A stretch of DNA of 64,000 nt from Phyllobacterium sophorae. GTDB lineage: Bacteria > Pseudomonadota > Alphaproteobacteria > Rhizobiales > Rhizobiaceae. A program made the position numbers and the translations under genes. How positions within the stretch are numbered: the first letter of the stretch is position 1; every line of letters starts with the position of its first letter. Of this stretch, positions 11,789 to 63,014 are shown one piece after another. The DNA lies in assembly GCF_003010965.1 (NCBI RefSeq), contig NZ_PGGM01000008.1, positions 186,001 through 250,000 of the forward strand. Reading direction: 5' to 3'. Under the pieces are notes generated by a model that searched no databases, was not told the DNA's origin, and saw nothing but the letters and a program-made list of their open reading frames with translations.

Positions 11789-12910
11789 ATGCTTGACTGG
11801 ACCGAAACCACCAACAGCCCAAAACGCGCCATTCATCCGGCGCCTACCGCAACCACCGGTGCCACCGGACTTGGCAATATCGATCGCGACGGCGGCCGCG
11901 TGCGTGTCGATGACAAGGCGATGATCAATGCGCGCGCTGACGTGAACCAGCTTCTGCCGCTCAAATATCACTGGGCATGGGACAAATATCTTGCCGGCTG
12001 CAACAATCACTGGATGCCGACTGAAGTATCGATGCAGGCCGATATCGCGCTGTGGAAATCCAGGGACGGGCTGACCGAGGATGAGCGGCGCATGATCAAA
12101 CGCAATCTCGGCTTCTTCGCCACCTCCGAGTCCCTCGTCGCCAACAACATCGTTCTGGCGATCTACCGCCATCTCACCAATCCCGAATGCCGTCAGTATC
12201 TGTTGCGCCAGGCCTTCGAAGAGGCGGTCCATACCCATACGTTCCAGTATATCGTCGAGAGCCTTGGCCTGGATGAAGGCGAGCTCTTCAACATGTACCG
12301 GGAGGTGCCTTCGATTACCGGCAAGGCGGCCTGGGCGCTCAAGCACACGCAAAATCTCGACAATCCCGACTTCAGGACAGGCACGCCGGAATCCGATCAG
12401 TCCTTCCTGCGCGATCTCATCGCCTTCTATGTGATCTTCGAGGGCATGTGGTTCTACACCGGCTTCGCCCAGATCCTGTCGCTCGGGCGGCGCAACAAGA
12501 TGGTCGGTATCGCCGAGCAGTATCAGTACATCCTGCGCGACGAGAGCATCCACATGAATTTCGGCATCGATGTGATCAACCAGATCCGGAACGAGAACCC
12601 GCATCTGTGGACCAGGGAATTTCAGGACGCGATCCGCGACATGATCAGGGCCGCAGCCGAACTCGAAGCCTCCTACGGCCGGGATACGATGCCGCGCGGG
12701 TTCCTCGGGCTCAACGCTGCGCTCTGCGAAAGCTACATGCATTTCATCGCCAACCGCCGCTGCGCGCAGTTGGGCCTCGCGCCGGTCTTTCCCGAGACGG
12801 ACAATCCATTTCCGTGGATGTCGGAAGCCATGGATCTGAAGAAGGAGAAGAACTTCTTCGAAACCCGTGTCATCGAATACCAGAACGGCGGAGCACTGGC
12901 ATGGGACTGA
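11789..12910 (+). CDS. nrdB: Ribonucleotide reductase small subunit, class Ic type (radical tyrosine replaced by Phe)
   Basis: A 373-residue R2 protein. Aligned by eye with E. coli NrdB, the metal ligands are E114 (replacing Asp84), E145 and H148 (EAVH), E218, and E252 and H255 (RDESIH). The radical tyrosine Tyr122 is Phe152 (codon TTC at 12242-12244). The pair Asp-to-Glu and Tyr-to-Phe is the known hallmark of class Ic, as in Chlamydia, which uses a Mn/Fe centre instead of a tyrosyl radical. The ATG at 11789 has GGGAA 7 nt upstream. The 3' end overlaps the next small ORF by 10 nt. Confidence 0.92.
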
Positions 12911-57358: not shown

Positions 57359-58204
57359 ATGTCCAAACGATTTTATCTTGCGGCCGCTGTTGCCGCACTT
57401 TCCATGATGCCTTCGCTCGGCGCGTTCGCCCAGGAAACCAAGAGCAAACTTGATGAGGTTCTGGCTCGCGGCCATCTGGTGCTTGGTACCGGCAGCACCA
57501 ATGCGCCATGGCATTTCAAGAGTGCTGACGACAAGCTGCAAGGCTTCGACGTTGACATGGGCCATATCATTGCCAAGGCTCTTTTCAACGATCCCGAGAA
57601 AATTGAATTCGTCAATCAATCTTCGGATGCCCGCATCCCGAACATCACCACTGACAAGGTCGATATCACCTGTCAGTTCATGACCGTCACCGGTGAACGG
57701 GCACAACAGATCGCCTTCACTATTCCCTATTACCGGGAAGGCGTCGGTCTCATGCTCAAGGCCGACAGCAAATATGCTGATTATGCTGCGCTGAAAGCGG
57801 CGGGCTCGTCCGTTACGATCTCCGTCCTGCAGAATGTCTATGCCGAGAGCATGGTGCATGCGGCCCTGCCGGAAGCCAAGGTCGATCAATATGAGTCCGT
57901 GGACCTGATCTATCAGGCGCTGGAATCCGGCCGCGCCGATGCGGCTGCGACCGATCAGTCGTCGCTCGCCTGGTACATGACCCAGAACCAGGGGCGCTAC
58001 AAGGATGCCGGTTATGGCTGGAACCCGCAGACCTATGCCTGCGGTGTCAAGCGCGGCGACCAGGATTGGCTGAATTTCGTCAACACGGCACTGCACGAAG
58101 CCATGACAGGCGTCGAGTTCGATTTCTATGCTAAATCGTTCAAGACCTGGTTCGGCAAGGATCTGACACCACCGCAAATCGGTTTCCCGGTCGAGTATAA
58201 GTAA
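57359..58204 (+). CDS. Amino-acid-type ABC transporter substrate-binding protein
   Basis: A 281-residue family 3 periplasmic-binding protein: signal peptide MSKRFYLAAAVAALSMMPSL cleaved after AFA, then HLVLGTGSTNAPWHFKSADD, LQGFDVDMGHIIAKALF and VDITCQFMTVTGERAQQIAF. The ligand-binding Asp in GFDVDMG and Arg in TGERA are typical of the class, but the exact substrate is unknown. The ATG at 57359 has AGGGGA about 7 nt upstream, which decides against 57314. Confidence 0.87.
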   Translation: MSKRFYLAAAVAALSMMPSLGAFAQETKSKLDEVLARGHLVLGTGSTNAPWHFKSADDKLQGFDVDMGHIIAKALFNDPEKIEFVNQSSDARIPNITTDKVDITCQFMTVTGERAQQIAFTIPYYREGVGLMLKADSKYADYAALKAAGSSVTISVLQNVYAESMVHAALPEAKVDQYESVDLIYQALESGRADAAATDQSSLAWYMTQNQGRYKDAGYGWNPQTYACGVKRGDQDWLNFVNTALHEAMTGVEFDFYAKSFKTWFGKDLTPPQIGFPVEYK

Positions 58205-58218
58205 CCCCGGTCATCCCG

Positions 58219-58241
58219 CGGCTCCGGCTTCGCCGGAGCCG
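58219..58241 (+). terminator. Hairpin between the binding-protein gene and its permease
   Basis: CGGCTCCGGC and GCCGGAGCCG pair over 10 bases with a very short TTC loop, 14 nt after the stop. There is no T run beyond TGCTCTTG. It is probably a partial terminator or mRNA-stabilising element, as after the other binding-protein genes here. Confidence 0.55.
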
Positions 58242-58272
58242 TGCTCTTGTGGTTTGGAACGGTGAGCGCTTC

Positions 58273-58935
58273 ATGGGCTATACACTGAATTTCGCTGCGG
58301 TGTGGCGCAGCTTCGACCTTTTGCTCGAAGGACTGGCGCTGAGCCTTGCTCTGGCCTTTGCTGCCATTGCCATAGGCGCCGTGATCGGCCTTTTCACCGC
58401 GTTTTGTCTGATCTCGAAGAATGGCTTCATCCAGCGTCCCGCCGGCACATACGTGACGATCATCCGCAACACGCCAATCCTGGTGCTGGTCCTGTTCACC
58501 TATTTCGCACTGCCGCAAATTGGGTTCCGCCTTGGCAAGATCGAAAGTTTTGTCTTCACGCTTGCTCTTTATTCCGGCGCCTACCTCGCGGAAGTTTTTC
58601 GCGCAGGACTATTGTCAATTCCAGGCGGCCTGCGCGAAGCAGGTCTCGCCATCGGCCTGACCGAAATGCAGATTCGCACCTCCATTATCGCACCATTGAT
58701 GCTCCGCAACGTCCTGCCATCGCTCAGCAGCACCATTATATCGCTGTTCAAGGACACCTCGCTGGCTGCTGCGATTGCCGTGCCGGAACTGACCTTCGAG
58801 GCGCGCAAGATCAATGTCGAAACATTTCGCGTAATCGAGACATGGATCGTTGCGAGCTGCCTCTACGTGTTTACCTGTTCGATCCTCGCGGCGCTGATGC
58901 GCGCTGTCGAGCGTCGCCTGTCATTGCCGAGGTGA
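58273..58935 (+). CDS. Amino-acid-type ABC transporter permease 1
   Basis: A 220-residue His/Glu/Gln-type permease: WRSFDLLLEGLALSLALAF, TIIRNTPILVLVLFTYFALP, YSGAYLAEVFRAGLLSIPGG and the EAA loop REAGLAIGLTEMQIRTSII. ATG at 58273 is taken; a GTG at 58249 in the same frame is less well supported. It forms a heterodimer with the next permease. Confidence 0.87.
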   Translation: MGYTLNFAAVWRSFDLLLEGLALSLALAFAAIAIGAVIGLFTAFCLISKNGFIQRPAGTYVTIIRNTPILVLVLFTYFALPQIGFRLGKIESFVFTLALYSGAYLAEVFRAGLLSIPGGLREAGLAIGLTEMQIRTSIIAPLMLRNVLPSLSSTIISLFKDTSLAAAIAVPELTFEARKINVETFRVIETWIVASCLYVFTCSILAALMRAVERRLSLPR

Positions 58936-58939
58936 TGTG

Positions 58940-59602
58940 ATGGATATTGCGCATTTCCTCGATGTTCTCTGGCTTGCACGCTTGCCGATCCTAAAGGGTC
59001 TTGGGGTTACGATTTCGATCTCGTTCCTGGCGATCTGTTTCGGCACAGTGCTCGGTCTTTTTGTCGGCTTGGCCCTGACCTACGGTGTTCGCCCGCTGCG
59101 CTGGATTGTTCGAGGATATACGGACTTCATCCGCGGTACCCCGGTGCTGGTCCTCGTCCTTGCAAGCTATTATGTCCTTGGCACGATTGGCCTGGACCTT
59201 GGACCATTCCAGGCTGGTGTTCTGGCGCTTGCAGTCTTCTGCAGTTCGCATGTTGGCGAAATCGTGCGCGGCGCGCTGCAGTCGATCCCTAAAGGACAGA
59301 CCGAAGCTGCCAAGGCAATCGGCCTGACCTTCCCGCAAACCTTTGCCTATGTGCTGGGACCGCAGGCGCTGCGTCAAGTCTTGCCGGCATGGGTCAACAC
59401 AGCTGCGGAAATGGTCAAGGCCTCGACCTTGCTCTCCATCATCGGCGTTGCCGAGCTGTTGTTGCGAACGCAAGAACTGATCTCACGCGCATTCATGAGC
59501 CTCGAATTCTATTTGTTCGCCGGCTTGCTCTATTTCACCATCAACTACGCCATCGAGCGTTTCGGCCGCTATGTCGAACGCAAGACTGCAGTTCCCTCGT
59601 AA
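58940..59602 (+). CDS. Amino-acid-type ABC transporter permease 2
   Basis: A 220-residue permease of the same family: LPILKGLGVTISISFLAICF, DFIRGTPVLVLVLASYYVLG, CSSHVGEIVRGALQSIPKGQ and TEAAKAIGLTFPQTFAYVLG. It begins 4 nt after the first permease stop. GTG at 58937 directly precedes the chosen ATG. Two permeases plus one ATPase is the usual composition of this class. Confidence 0.87.
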   Translation: MDIAHFLDVLWLARLPILKGLGVTISISFLAICFGTVLGLFVGLALTYGVRPLRWIVRGYTDFIRGTPVLVLVLASYYVLGTIGLDLGPFQAGVLALAVFCSSHVGEIVRGALQSIPKGQTEAAKAIGLTFPQTFAYVLGPQALRQVLPAWVNTAAEMVKASTLLSIIGVAELLLRTQELISRAFMSLEFYLFAGLLYFTINYAIERFGRYVERKTAVPS

Positions 59603-59614
59603 GGATGTCCGCCG

Positions 59615-60385
59615 ATGTCAAATAACCTGCTTGAAATCCGCGACCTGCACAAAAGCTACGGCGATGTCGAAGTTTTAAAAGGTGTCGACTGCACCATGTC
59701 GCAAGGCGACGTCATCAGCATTATCGGGTCAAGCGGCTCCGGCAAGACAACAATGCTGCGCTGTATCAACATGCTGGAAGAATTTCAGGGCGGCTCGATC
59801 AGCATTGACGGGCAGGAGATCGGCTACGAAACTGTTGGTGGAGAGCGCCGCCGCAAGAAGGAAAAGGAGATCGCGCGCCAGCGGGCACTGACCGGCATGG
59901 CCTTCCAGCAGTTCAATCTCTTCCCGCATATGACCGCCGCCCGCAATGTCATGCTTGGCCTGATGAAGGTGAAGAGACTGAGCAAGGAGGAAGCGCGGGC
60001 CCTTGCCGAGAAATGGCTGGACCGCGTTGGGCTTCGTGGGCGCGCCGACCACTTCCCCGGACAGCTTTCCGGCGGCCAGCAGCAGCGCGTGGCCATTGCT
60101 CGGGCCATCGCCATGAACCCCAGACTGATGCTGTTTGACGAAGTGACGTCGGCCCTTGATCCGGAGCTTGTCAACGAAGTGCTGCAGGTGATCAAGGCGC
60201 TGGCCCAGGACGGAATGAGTATGCTGCTCGTCACTCACGAAATGCGTTTCGCCTATGAGGTTTCCAACCGGGTCATCTTCATGAATGAGGGGCGAATCGG
60301 CGAGGAGGGCAATCCGCGCGAGATGTTCCACAAGCCGAAGAGCGAACGGCTTGCAGAGTTTTTGAAAACATCAAGCTTCGGTTGA
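59615..60385 (+). CDS. Amino-acid-type ABC transporter ATP-binding protein
   Basis: A 256-residue ATPase: [40 protein letters not shown] (Q-loop), [36 protein letters not shown] and the [15 protein letters not shown] histidine. It is the last gene of the operon. The adjacent kdgD remnant and GntR gene on the opposite strand hint that the system may have imported a sugar acid rather than an amino acid, but this is inference. Confidence 0.92.
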
Positions 60386-60400: not shown

Positions 60401-60434
60401 CCAATCAGGTTTGCTGGCCAATCAGGTTTGCTGG
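60401..60434. repeat. 17-bp perfect tandem duplication
   Basis: CCAATCAGGTTTGCTGG occurs twice in a row (60401-60417 and 60418-60434). It covers the stop codon of the kdgD pseudogene (on the minus strand at 60422-60424) and copies it. This looks like a recent slippage event in decaying DNA. Confidence 0.85.
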
Positions 60435-61332
60435 CCCAGTCGTTCGATAAGTTCCCCCAGATCCTCTCGGTCCCGGGCTGTGCAGTCCACAAGTGGCGCG
60501 CACACCTCCGGCAGACCGGCCAACGATCGATGCACCCGCCTTGACGATGCTTACGGCATTGCCGGCAACGCGGTTGCGAATGGCAATGTAGGGTAAGAAG
60601 AACTCGCTCAACAATCTTGCCGTCGTCTCCCGGTCATCTTCGGCGACTGCCTTGTAGAAGGTGAGGGCGGTTCGCGGAATGAAATTGAAGACGGCCGACG
60701 AATAGACATCGACACCCATAGCCTTATAGGCCTGCGCATAGACCTCAGCGGTGGGCAAGCCGCCGAGGTAGGCGAACCGATCACCGAGCCGGTGGCGGTT
60801 CGAAACCATATTCTCAATGTCGCCCGCGCCATCCATAAAGCCGATGAGGTTCGGGCATTTTTCGGCAAGGCGTTCCAACGCATCTGCGTTCAACCTGCAC
60901 ACATTGCCGTTGTAGACGATGACGCCAAGGCTTGTCGCAGCACAGACCGCCTCGACATGTCGGCAAAGCCCTCGGTGCCGGTTTCAGTCAGATAGTGCGG
61001 CAGCAAGAGCAGTCCGGCAGCACCGTTCTTTTCTGCAGCTCGTGCCATCTCCGCGGCCATGCGCGTTCCGTATGCAGCTGCAGCGATAATGGGCACTTGC
61101 CCACCGCAAGCTGCAACTGCGGTATGAACCACTTGCTCATGTTCGGCCGGCGTCAGCGAAAACCCTTCGCCCGTCCCGCCACCGACAAACAGCGCCGAGG
61201 CACCATAAGGCGCAAGCCATTCCAGACGTTTGGCGTAGGAATCCGGCTGGAAGTCGCCAGCCTCATTGAATCAGTGATGGGGAAGGACAGGAGACCGGAG
61301 CTGACTGTTTGCTTGAGTGCCTGGATGGGAGC
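60422..61332 (-). pseudogene. kdgD: 5-dehydro-4-deoxyglucarate dehydratase (kdgD) remnant
   Basis: Read across frames, the minus strand gives a near-complete Kdg[114 protein letters not shown] and the C-terminal [15 protein letters not shown]. Three frameshifts break it (near 61270, 60957 and 60505), no usable start codon precedes it, and the Schiff-base lysine of the usual GFKDG motif is Met (ATG, complement of 60834-60836). Intact KdgD makes 2-oxoglutarate semialdehyde in glucarate catabolism. Confidence 0.82.
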
Positions 61333-61432
61333 CTCGTCTGGAATAGAACGTTCCGACGATTACCACCATGTATGTCATCCTACCACTACAAAGGCGACTG
61401 CGTACTGACTTGCTTTCAACTCATCGGGCGAG

Positions 61433-62161
61433 TTAGGCCTGCCGTTGATCCGCGTGCAGGGCACTGTTGCGCAGCCGGTCGCGGCTGCTGCCAAGGTGAA
61501 GGCGCATGGCGGCGCGGGCACCTTCCACGTCCTGCGCCCTGATGGCCTGGTAGATCTGGTCGTGCTCGCGATTGATCCGTTCCAGATATTCACGCTGTGG
61601 CAAACCATTGATCCGATGGGTTTGCAGCCGCGCGCGCGGAATCAAGACCTCGCCGAGATAGTTGAACATACTCAGAAAGTGCCGGTTTTTTGTTGCAATT
61701 GCGATTGCGCGATGAAATTCAAGGTCGGCGTGGATCGAACTTTCATCCCGCTCTATGGCTTCATTCATCAGGTCGAGCGCATTTTTGATTCTCGCAAGAT
61801 CTTCCTCGTCGCGACGCACCGCCGCCAAGGCAGCAGCCTCAAGCTCGATGCTGATTCTCAGCTCCATAACGCCGACAATTTCCTCGACGAGTTCGAGATT
61901 GTCTTCTTCAATCCGGAACGCCACCGCAGGAATGTCTTTAAGCACGAAAGCCCCGATGCCCTGTTGGGTGTGAACCAGTCCTTTGGCTTTCAAATTGGCG
62001 ATCGCTTCGCGCACCACGGTCCGACTCACATTGAATTCGGCGATCATGTCCTGCTCTGTCGGCAACCGTTCGCCGCGCTTGTAATGGCCGGACGTAATCC
62101 GGTCTGCAACCGCCTTAACCAATTGACCTGTAAGCGTTTCTCGTTTGCCAAGACCGGCCAT
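61433..62161 (-). CDS. GntR family (FadR subfamily) regulator
   Basis: A 242-residue regulator: winged helix (TGQLVKAVADRITSGHYKRG, RLPTEQDMIAEFNVSRTVVR, EAIANLKAKGLVHTQQGIGAF) and a FadR-type all-helical effector domain with metal-binding His/Asp positions (DLEFHRAIAIATKNRHFLSMF, EHDQIYQAIRAQDVEGARAAM). AAGG lies 5 nt before the ATG at 62161; the frame opens at 62284. It is intact while the catabolic genes beside it are broken. FadR-type proteins of this sort often control sugar-acid pathways. Confidence 0.83.
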   Translation of the reverse strand: MAGLGKRETLTGQLVKAVADRITSGHYKRGERLPTEQDMIAEFNVSRTVVREAIANLKAKGLVHTQQGIGAFVLKDIPAVAFRIEEDNLELVEEIVGVMELRISIELEAAALAAVRRDEEDLARIKNALDLMNEAIERDESSIHADLEFHRAIAIATKNRHFLSMFNYLGEVLIPRARLQTHRINGLPQREYLERINREHDQIYQAIRAQDVEGARAAMRLHLGSSRDRLRNSALHADQRQA

Positions 62162-62400
62162 TTGCACCTTCTTTGCTTCCACCAGGCAGCGCCGCTCGCC
62201 GTTCCTGGAGCAGCATGCCAGAGGCGTCGTGTTAACAAAGTAAGATATCATATATTCATGGAATGAAAACTGCGCCACCGACATTTCCTCATAAAATCAA
62301 ACACTTTGCGCAGATCTGGCTTTGGACCGTGCCGTGCACACGCGCCTTTGCCCAGCCACCGCAACGGCAAATTCGCCCCTTGCCGGCTCGCCAAATCAAT

Positions 62401-62415
62401 ACTACGACGTCATAC
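62401..62415. promoter_or_regulatory. Candidate GntR-type operator
   Basis: CTACGACGTCATAC is a near-perfect palindrome centred on GACGTC, 33 nt before the start of the truncated binding-protein gene. GntR regulators often bind short palindromes of this kind. The other 240 nt between 62162 and 62400 show no gene. Confidence 0.4.
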
Positions 62416-62447
62416 AACATAGAACGCTGCTCATAGGGAGGAAAACT

Positions 62448-62537
62448 GTGTCGCATTTTCGGGCCTTACTGGTTGGGACGACGGCCGTCGTCGCTGCCAT
62501 GACGATGAATGTTGCCGTGCGAGCCAAATTTCGTTAG
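62448..62537 (+). pseudogene. Signal-peptide remnant of a periplasmic binding protein
   Basis: GTG at 62448, preceded by a strong AGGGAGG Shine-Dalgarno site at 62435-62441, opens 29 codons: SHFRALLVGTTAVVAAMTMN, then VAVRAKFR and TAG. This is a complete Sec signal peptide (basic N-region, hydrophobic core, A-R-A cleavage box) with nothing after it; the stop abuts the end of the doxX gene. It looks like an ABC binding-protein gene whose mature part was deleted. Confidence 0.6.
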
Positions 62538-62923
62538 GTGCATTTTCGCCATGCCTCGATTGACCAGGCACCCGGACCGAAAGCAACGATCGCCAGAAAC
62601 CCGCCTGCCATGGCGATATTCTTGTTGAAGTTGATGACTTGTTCAAAATTGCTGAAATCGGTGTGGAACAGCATTGCAGTCAGCAGACAAAACCCGGCGA
62701 GCGCTGCCGCCGCATAGCGGGTTGCGGAGCCGGCAGCGACGAGGATTCCCCCGCCCAGCTCGGTGACTATGACGAGGGGGAGGAGCGCCGCTGACACGCC
62801 GTTGGCTTCCATATAGTTGCCGGTTGCCGCGTAATCGCCAATCTTGCCCCAGCCCTCGATGATGAAGATATAGGCCAGAAACAGCCTTGCAAGCAGCGCG
62901 GTGGGTGCCTGAAATCTTTCCAT
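62534..62923 (-). CDS. DoxX family membrane protein
   Basis: A 129-residue protein with four membrane segments: ALLARLFLAYIFIIEGWGKI, ALLPLVIVTELGGGILVAAG, AALAGFCLLTAMLFHTDF and NFNKNIAMAGGFLAIVAFGP, the DoxX/YphA pattern. GGAGG lies 5 nt before the ATG at 62923, which decides against 62935. DoxX proteins are inner-membrane proteins often linked to redox stress; the role here is unknown. Confidence 0.85.
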   Translation of the reverse strand: MERFQAPTALLARLFLAYIFIIEGWGKIGDYAATGNYMEANGVSAALLPLVIVTELGGGILVAAGSATRYAAAALAGFCLLTAMLFHTDFSNFEQVINFNKNIAMAGGFLAIVAFGPGAWSIEAWRKCT

Positions 62924-63014
62924 TTTGTCCTCCATAGAATGACGCCCTGCGCGCTGGCCTTGTCAGGCGTCAAAACACTGTAGGTGATCCATTTATTCAT
63001 CGCCAAAAATGAAA

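Follow-up and report, generated by a model that had tools for sequence, protein, structure and literature searches.

A kdgD pseudogene of Phyllobacterium sophorae is one scar of a larger loss at a sugar-acid locus that retains its GntR regulator

When a catabolic gene lies broken between an intact transporter and an intact regulator, has the organism lost a step of the pathway? The question is raised by a locus in the 6.35-Mb genome of Phyllobacterium sophorae, within the stretch of DNA analysed here (the window; 64,000 nucleotides, G000:C48:186001-250000), for which a preliminary description had reported a pseudogene of kdgD and proposed that a pathway, probably for glucarate or galactarate use, had lost a step. 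In DNA comparisons the locus finds its three best matches in Phyllobacterium plasmids.

The KdgD protein sequence can be read on the minus strand only by passing through three frames, and two separate pieces of the remnant match Pfam DHDPS and NCBIfam NF002958 (they account for two of the 13 matches to the PF00701 profile in this genome). The open kdgD ortholog of Phyllobacterium sp. A18/5-2, with which the window shares 94.8% DNA identity, served as a reference for the lesions. Relative to it one base is missing at about 61268-61271, one at about 60967 and two at about 60495-60502, the exact placement within repeats being arbitrary, and a further six bases are missing after 61324, at the start codon. 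There is consequently no single open frame with a start codon. In addition, the GFKDG motif, which is present in all nine orthologs of the window locus and in all eight other kdgD loci compared, reads GFMDGA in the window. The lysine of this motif is described as the Schiff-base former of the enzyme superfamily in the excerpts of two reports (PMC5114784, PMC13398020). Since the start codon, an intact frame and the Schiff-base lysine are all missing, no working KdgD can be obtained from this copy. The characterized KdgD family (TIGR03249, NF002958; PDB 4ur7 and four further entries of the same sequence) offers a direct comparison: the P. zundukense ortholog (411.4 bits against a TIGR03249 cut-off of 373.95) and a paralog within this genome both pass the equivalog cut-off and keep the lysine, whereas in the window copy the frame is broken, the start is lost and Met stands in place of the lysine. 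The preliminary description was therefore accurate as to the pseudogene and its position, the three frameshifts, the lost start and the replaced catalytic lysine, and the comparison with relatives that it had suggested yielded intact open orthologs in nine other Phyllobacterium genomes, all with GFKDG. In the kdgD locus of G014 the compared stretch contained one stop symbol. A tandem direct repeat of about 17 bases (60401-60436) spans the old kdgD stop; it is also found in A18/5-2 and is single in P. zundukense.

Table 1. Positions of the kdgD remnant and of the features around it, numbered from the first base of the window.
Feature	Position	Strand	Remarks
ATP-binding gene of amino-acid-type ABC transporter	59615..60385	+	Left-hand neighbour of the module; SBP and permeases at 57359-59602
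kdgD pseudogene (5-dehydro-4-deoxyglucarate dehydratase)	60422..61326	-	Old stop 60422-60424; start codon lost, 6-base deletion at 61324/61325
Schiff-base lysine codon	60834..60836	-	Lys167 in the A18/5-2 ortholog; now ATG (Met)
Candidate operator before kdgD	61369..61384	-	Two mismatches to TGTATGATGACATACA
FadR/GntR-family regulator, intact	61433..62164	-	100% protein identity to A18/5-2 over 242 aligned residues
Second candidate operator, between GntR and former dppA	62401..62421	+	CATACAA half-site at 62411
Deletion scar	62448..62537	+	23 dppA start codons joined in frame to the last codons of a KduI/IolB-like gene; 29-residue ORF
DoxX-family gene	62534..62935	-	Right-hand neighbour of the ancestral module

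The kdgD remnant belongs to a wider loss, which took the conserved neighbouring transporter as well. On the far side of the GntR gene, homology of the window with A18/5-2 ends within the signal peptide of dppA and is followed by the tail of a KduI/IolB-like gene and then by DoxX; measured on G002, the missing piece amounts to about 6983 bases. A dppA search of this genome recovered the scar itself (an 88% match of 24 residues) and found no close dppA elsewhere, the best match having 41% identity. A dpp-type ABC transporter stands divergent from the window-type GntR gene in all ten relatives found (A18/5-2, P. zundukense, G002, G004, G007, G008, G009, G010, G012, and G015) and is deleted in the window. 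These relatives came from kdgD and DNA searches rather than from a GntR search, so that a relative with GntR alone could be missed, and the transporter of P. zundukense was taken from the annotation on both sides of the record start. A UxuA-like and a KduI/IolB-like gene follow the dpp transporter in six of six loci compared (A18, G002, G004, G007, G008, and P. zundukense; the UxuA-like match in G008 is in two pieces), and DoxX comes next in P. zundukense, G002 and G007. G017 has the empty site, with the same left and right neighbours and no module between them.

Based on these comparisons, the ancestral locus would have had GntR and kdgD on one side and, in divergent orientation, the genes for a dpp-type ABC transporter followed by those for a UxuA-like dehydratase and a KduI/IolB-like protein, the whole set between the amino-acid-type transporter and DoxX. 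Once this lineage had separated from that of A18/5-2, the transporter, dehydratase and KduI-like genes were removed by a deletion of about 7 kb, and kdgD, along with the candidate operator before it, decayed by near-neutral drift; the order of these events is our reconstruction. The placement of kdgD beside an intact transporter in the preliminary description holds for the amino-acid-type transporter but is misleading as to the locus. Four of the ten relatives, namely A18/5-2, P. zundukense, G002 and G007, have that transporter next to the locus, and the stretches compared from the other six do not show it; the conserved partner of GntR-kdgD is the dpp-type transporter, found in 10 of 10 and deleted here.

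Substitution counts indicated that kdgD decayed by near-neutral drift on the window branch. When eight other orthologs served as outgroups, this branch received 13 nonsynonymous and 6 synonymous changes (omega about 0.74), which is compatible with neutrality (lower-tail P = 0.35), compared with 1 nonsynonymous and 5 synonymous changes on the A18 branch (omega about 0.07); three changes were not assignable to either branch, and the difference between the branches, on these small numbers, has a Fisher p of 0.056. Nine of the replacements on the window branch hit codons at which all nine intact copies encode one and the same amino acid. Between the window and A18, the omega values of nine neighbouring genes are 0 to 0.27, and the pairwise kdgD count of 16:12 (nonsynonymous to synonymous) differs from their pooled count of about 30:92 (Fisher p = 0.0013), as does an alternative kdgD count of 15:13 (Fisher p = 0.005). 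Because the 6-base deletion misaligns three codons near the start, these were left out of the branch counts; they are included in a pairwise count of 18:13. In the pooled set, the comparison covers only part of SMP30, of the first permease and of the ATP-binding gene, and a neighbour tentatively labelled SDR was excluded from all neighbour counts. In the A18/5-2 record (NZ_CP104967.1) the frames of dppF, dppD, the ATP-binding gene of the amino-acid-type transporter and SMP30 are broken. Because of these four genes not all indels in that record are reliable, and we therefore relied on agreement with eight further genomes. Some of the A18/5-2 indels lie at homopolymers and may be assembly errors.

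These counts bear on two other readings of the remnant, both of which we regard as very improbable. One is that the lesions are sequencing or assembly errors in an intact gene, and it is true that two of the kdgD deletions fall in simple sequence, a run of T in one case and a GC dinucleotide repeat in the other. However, 13 amino-acid and 6 silent changes, nine of the former at invariant codons and including the Lys to Met replacement, lead us to reject a base-count artefact, as the preliminary description had done for the lysine codon; the 6-base deletion in kdgD and the 7-kb deletion nearby speak against it as well, as does the restriction of the near-neutral ratio to kdgD, since the nine compared neighbours keep open frames in the window. 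The other reading, to which we give equally little credence, is that the remnant still yields a protein in use, truncated or with a new role, for example from the 165-residue ORF at 60405-60902 that is open across the C-terminal part. The Lys to Met replacement lies within this ORF, however, and the end of the ORF is read in a shifted frame; neither the near-neutral substitution on the window branch nor the damage to the candidate operator before kdgD fits a protein in use. Decay of kdgD, relatively recent as had been proposed, is the reading that we carry forward.

Does the decay of this gene remove the KdgD step? A search for a second copy, suggested in the preliminary description, located one (copy B) at C33:200658-201566, which at 432.6 bits is the sole match of the 13 above the NF002958 cut-off in this genome, passes the KdgD equivalog cut-off (397.5 bits against 373.95 for TIGR03249) and contains GFKDG. 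Copy B is under constraint, with dS 0.63 and dN 0.030 relative to P. zundukense. It sits on a contig separate from that of the window, in an assembly rated 3.5% contaminated, within a locus (locus B) that also holds an enolase-superfamily gene, a GntR gene, a dpp-type transporter and a kduI-like gene. Because this intact and constrained copy is present, the KdgD step is duplicated rather than lost, and the claim that the pathway had lost a step is not supported; KdgD activity would presumably come from locus B, both the activity and the substrate being predicted. The enolase of locus B matches PDB 1rvk, 4hcd and 4mmw at about 668 bits, entries which we take to be the A. tumefaciens galactarate dehydratase III. 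The name GCI for this enolase was dropped, as the PDB match gives it no support.

The two copies may differ in substrate, since copy B is only 66% identical in protein to copy A (the window-type kdgD) of P. zundukense. Both copies are intact in P. zundukense and G002. In G007, whose assembly is 88% complete, copy B is present, and at the window-type locus GntR, the candidate operator and the dpp genes are retained with no kdgD between GntR and the amino-acid-type transporter; the absence maps to 11943-12021 of the stretch G007:C14:34000-53000 (L082). Among this genome, G002, G004, G007, G008, G009, G010, G012, G015, and G018, copy A has been lost in two of four genomes with copy B and in none of six without it; A18/5-2, for which there is a plasmid record only, was excluded from the count. 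As the Fisher p is 0.13, the link is suggestive only, and redundancy may be suggested as the cause of the loss of copy A. G004 also has a KdgD-like stretch that does not include the usual N-terminal part (7766-8392 of L050, G004:C89:64000-80000), with 50% identity to P. zundukense copy A over 210 aligned residues; it is at a different place from the other copies and is possibly another decaying copy.

We consider it very probable that the locus records the ordinary erosion of one of two redundant sugar-acid modules, an erosion larger than the preliminary description saw. The case for a real loss of a pathway step, such that the strain no longer uses aldarates or uronates, is weak and we think it unlikely. 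Both kdgD and the conserved transporter of the module are gone, and in this genome nothing exceeds the cut-off for glucarate dehydratase (GudD, TIGR03247; best 38.4 bits against 828.7) or for galactarate dehydratase (GarD, TIGR03248; best 379.8 bits against 730.85), all of which could be taken to favour such a loss. Against it stands the constrained, intact kdgD of locus B with its own transporter, regulator and enolase-superfamily gene. The lack of any match over the glucarate dehydratase cut-off makes glucarate a doubtful substrate of the lost module, so that the use of glucarate or galactarate first proposed is in doubt as to glucarate. For the last step, ketoglutarate semialdehyde dehydrogenase, candidates would be found among 40 aldehyde dehydrogenase matches in this genome; nine of these were scanned with NCBIfam, three being over the cut-off of a succinate-semialdehyde dehydrogenase subfamily, and one more was compared with PDB.

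Related systems are described in other bacteria. In the oxidative uronate and aldarate pathway of A. tumefaciens, as outlined in the portion of PMC6353982 available, KdgD is the step before the final dehydrogenase; the PDB matches of the locus B enolase suggest a likeness to that pathway, the activity of the Phyllobacterium enzymes being a prediction. In typhoidal Salmonella, according to excerpts of PMC11077982, sugar-acid catabolic genes have been lost as in the window, with pseudogenes in Paratyphi A, and in Typhi the CdaR regulator is reported to be functional and the transporter and dehydratases impaired. By the same excerpts, glucarate and galactarate use has been lost there as a trait, whereas an intact paralogous locus is present here and the KdgD route is a different pathway. 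Among the literature matches listed there was no report of a Phyllobacterium kdgD pseudogene.

The part of the module that has not eroded is the regulator. Its frame is intact, as first described, and between the window and A18/5-2 the gene has 13 synonymous and no nonsynonymous differences, of which 4 were placed on the branch to the window and 5 on that to A18, the remaining 4 being unassigned; the window-branch changes (4 silent, no replacement) have P = 0.004 under neutrality and differ from those of kdgD (p = 0.024). The protein matches NanR, LldR and other GntR models, all below their own cut-offs (25 listed of 29 families), and the P. zundukense ortholog is annotated FadR/GntR. It is 62% identical over 228 residues to the GntR protein of locus B.

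The sequences before the two kdgD copies suggest what this regulator might bind. Before kdgD, GTTGTATGATGACATA is invariant in nine of nine intact loci, and the window version is GTGGTAGGATGACATA. With up to two mismatches the 16-mer TGTATGATGACATACA has three matches in this genome (one for the reversed-pattern control): an exact match ahead of the enolase-kdgD B operon (C33:202874-202889), the decayed site of the window, and a third operator-like site at G000:C12:9261-9276. Intact A loci differ from one another in the final bases of the 16-mer, so that the 15-mer TTGTATGATGACATA allows a fairer comparison. Across 19 genomes, a set that did not include G002, it occurs exactly in nine, once each, with eight of the sites at locus A (that of G007 standing without kdgD) and one, that of this genome, at locus B; two other genomes have a one-mismatch site elsewhere, and the controls gave 0. 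The other three B loci examined have two mismatches to the candidate operator. FadR-type operators have TKGT/ACMA boxes, typically with three bases between GT and AC, according to the part of PMC4494728 available. The dppA-side candidate site reads TTGT-ATG-AC on the minus strand, and on the kdgD side the half-sites are of the TTGTATG type and differently spaced. We infer that the shared site may be the operator of the GntR proteins. Literature searches with the candidate-operator strings returned only cytomegalovirus papers, all through the shortest string, and a search on retained regulators gave nothing relevant by title.

The GntR gene may have outlived both neighbouring target operons because its product now controls the paralogous operon B, a possibility that we put forward tentatively and think rather less likely than not to be correct. 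It draws support from a GntR protein without an amino-acid change, a decayed local kdgD operator and the only exact TTGTATGATGACATA of this genome lying before operon B; against it, operon B has its own GntR and the dppA-side candidate site still stands in the window. The retained regulator would thus be one intriguing loose end of an otherwise ordinary erosion.

The locus offers a snapshot of one of two overlapping catabolic modules being shed, with enzyme, transporter and operator gone and the regulator kept, and it cautions that a pseudogene adjoining an intact transporter is no proof of pathway loss. If the GntR protein does now serve the paralogous operon, the locus would be a modest example, open to testing, of how regulation is rewired once genes have been lost.
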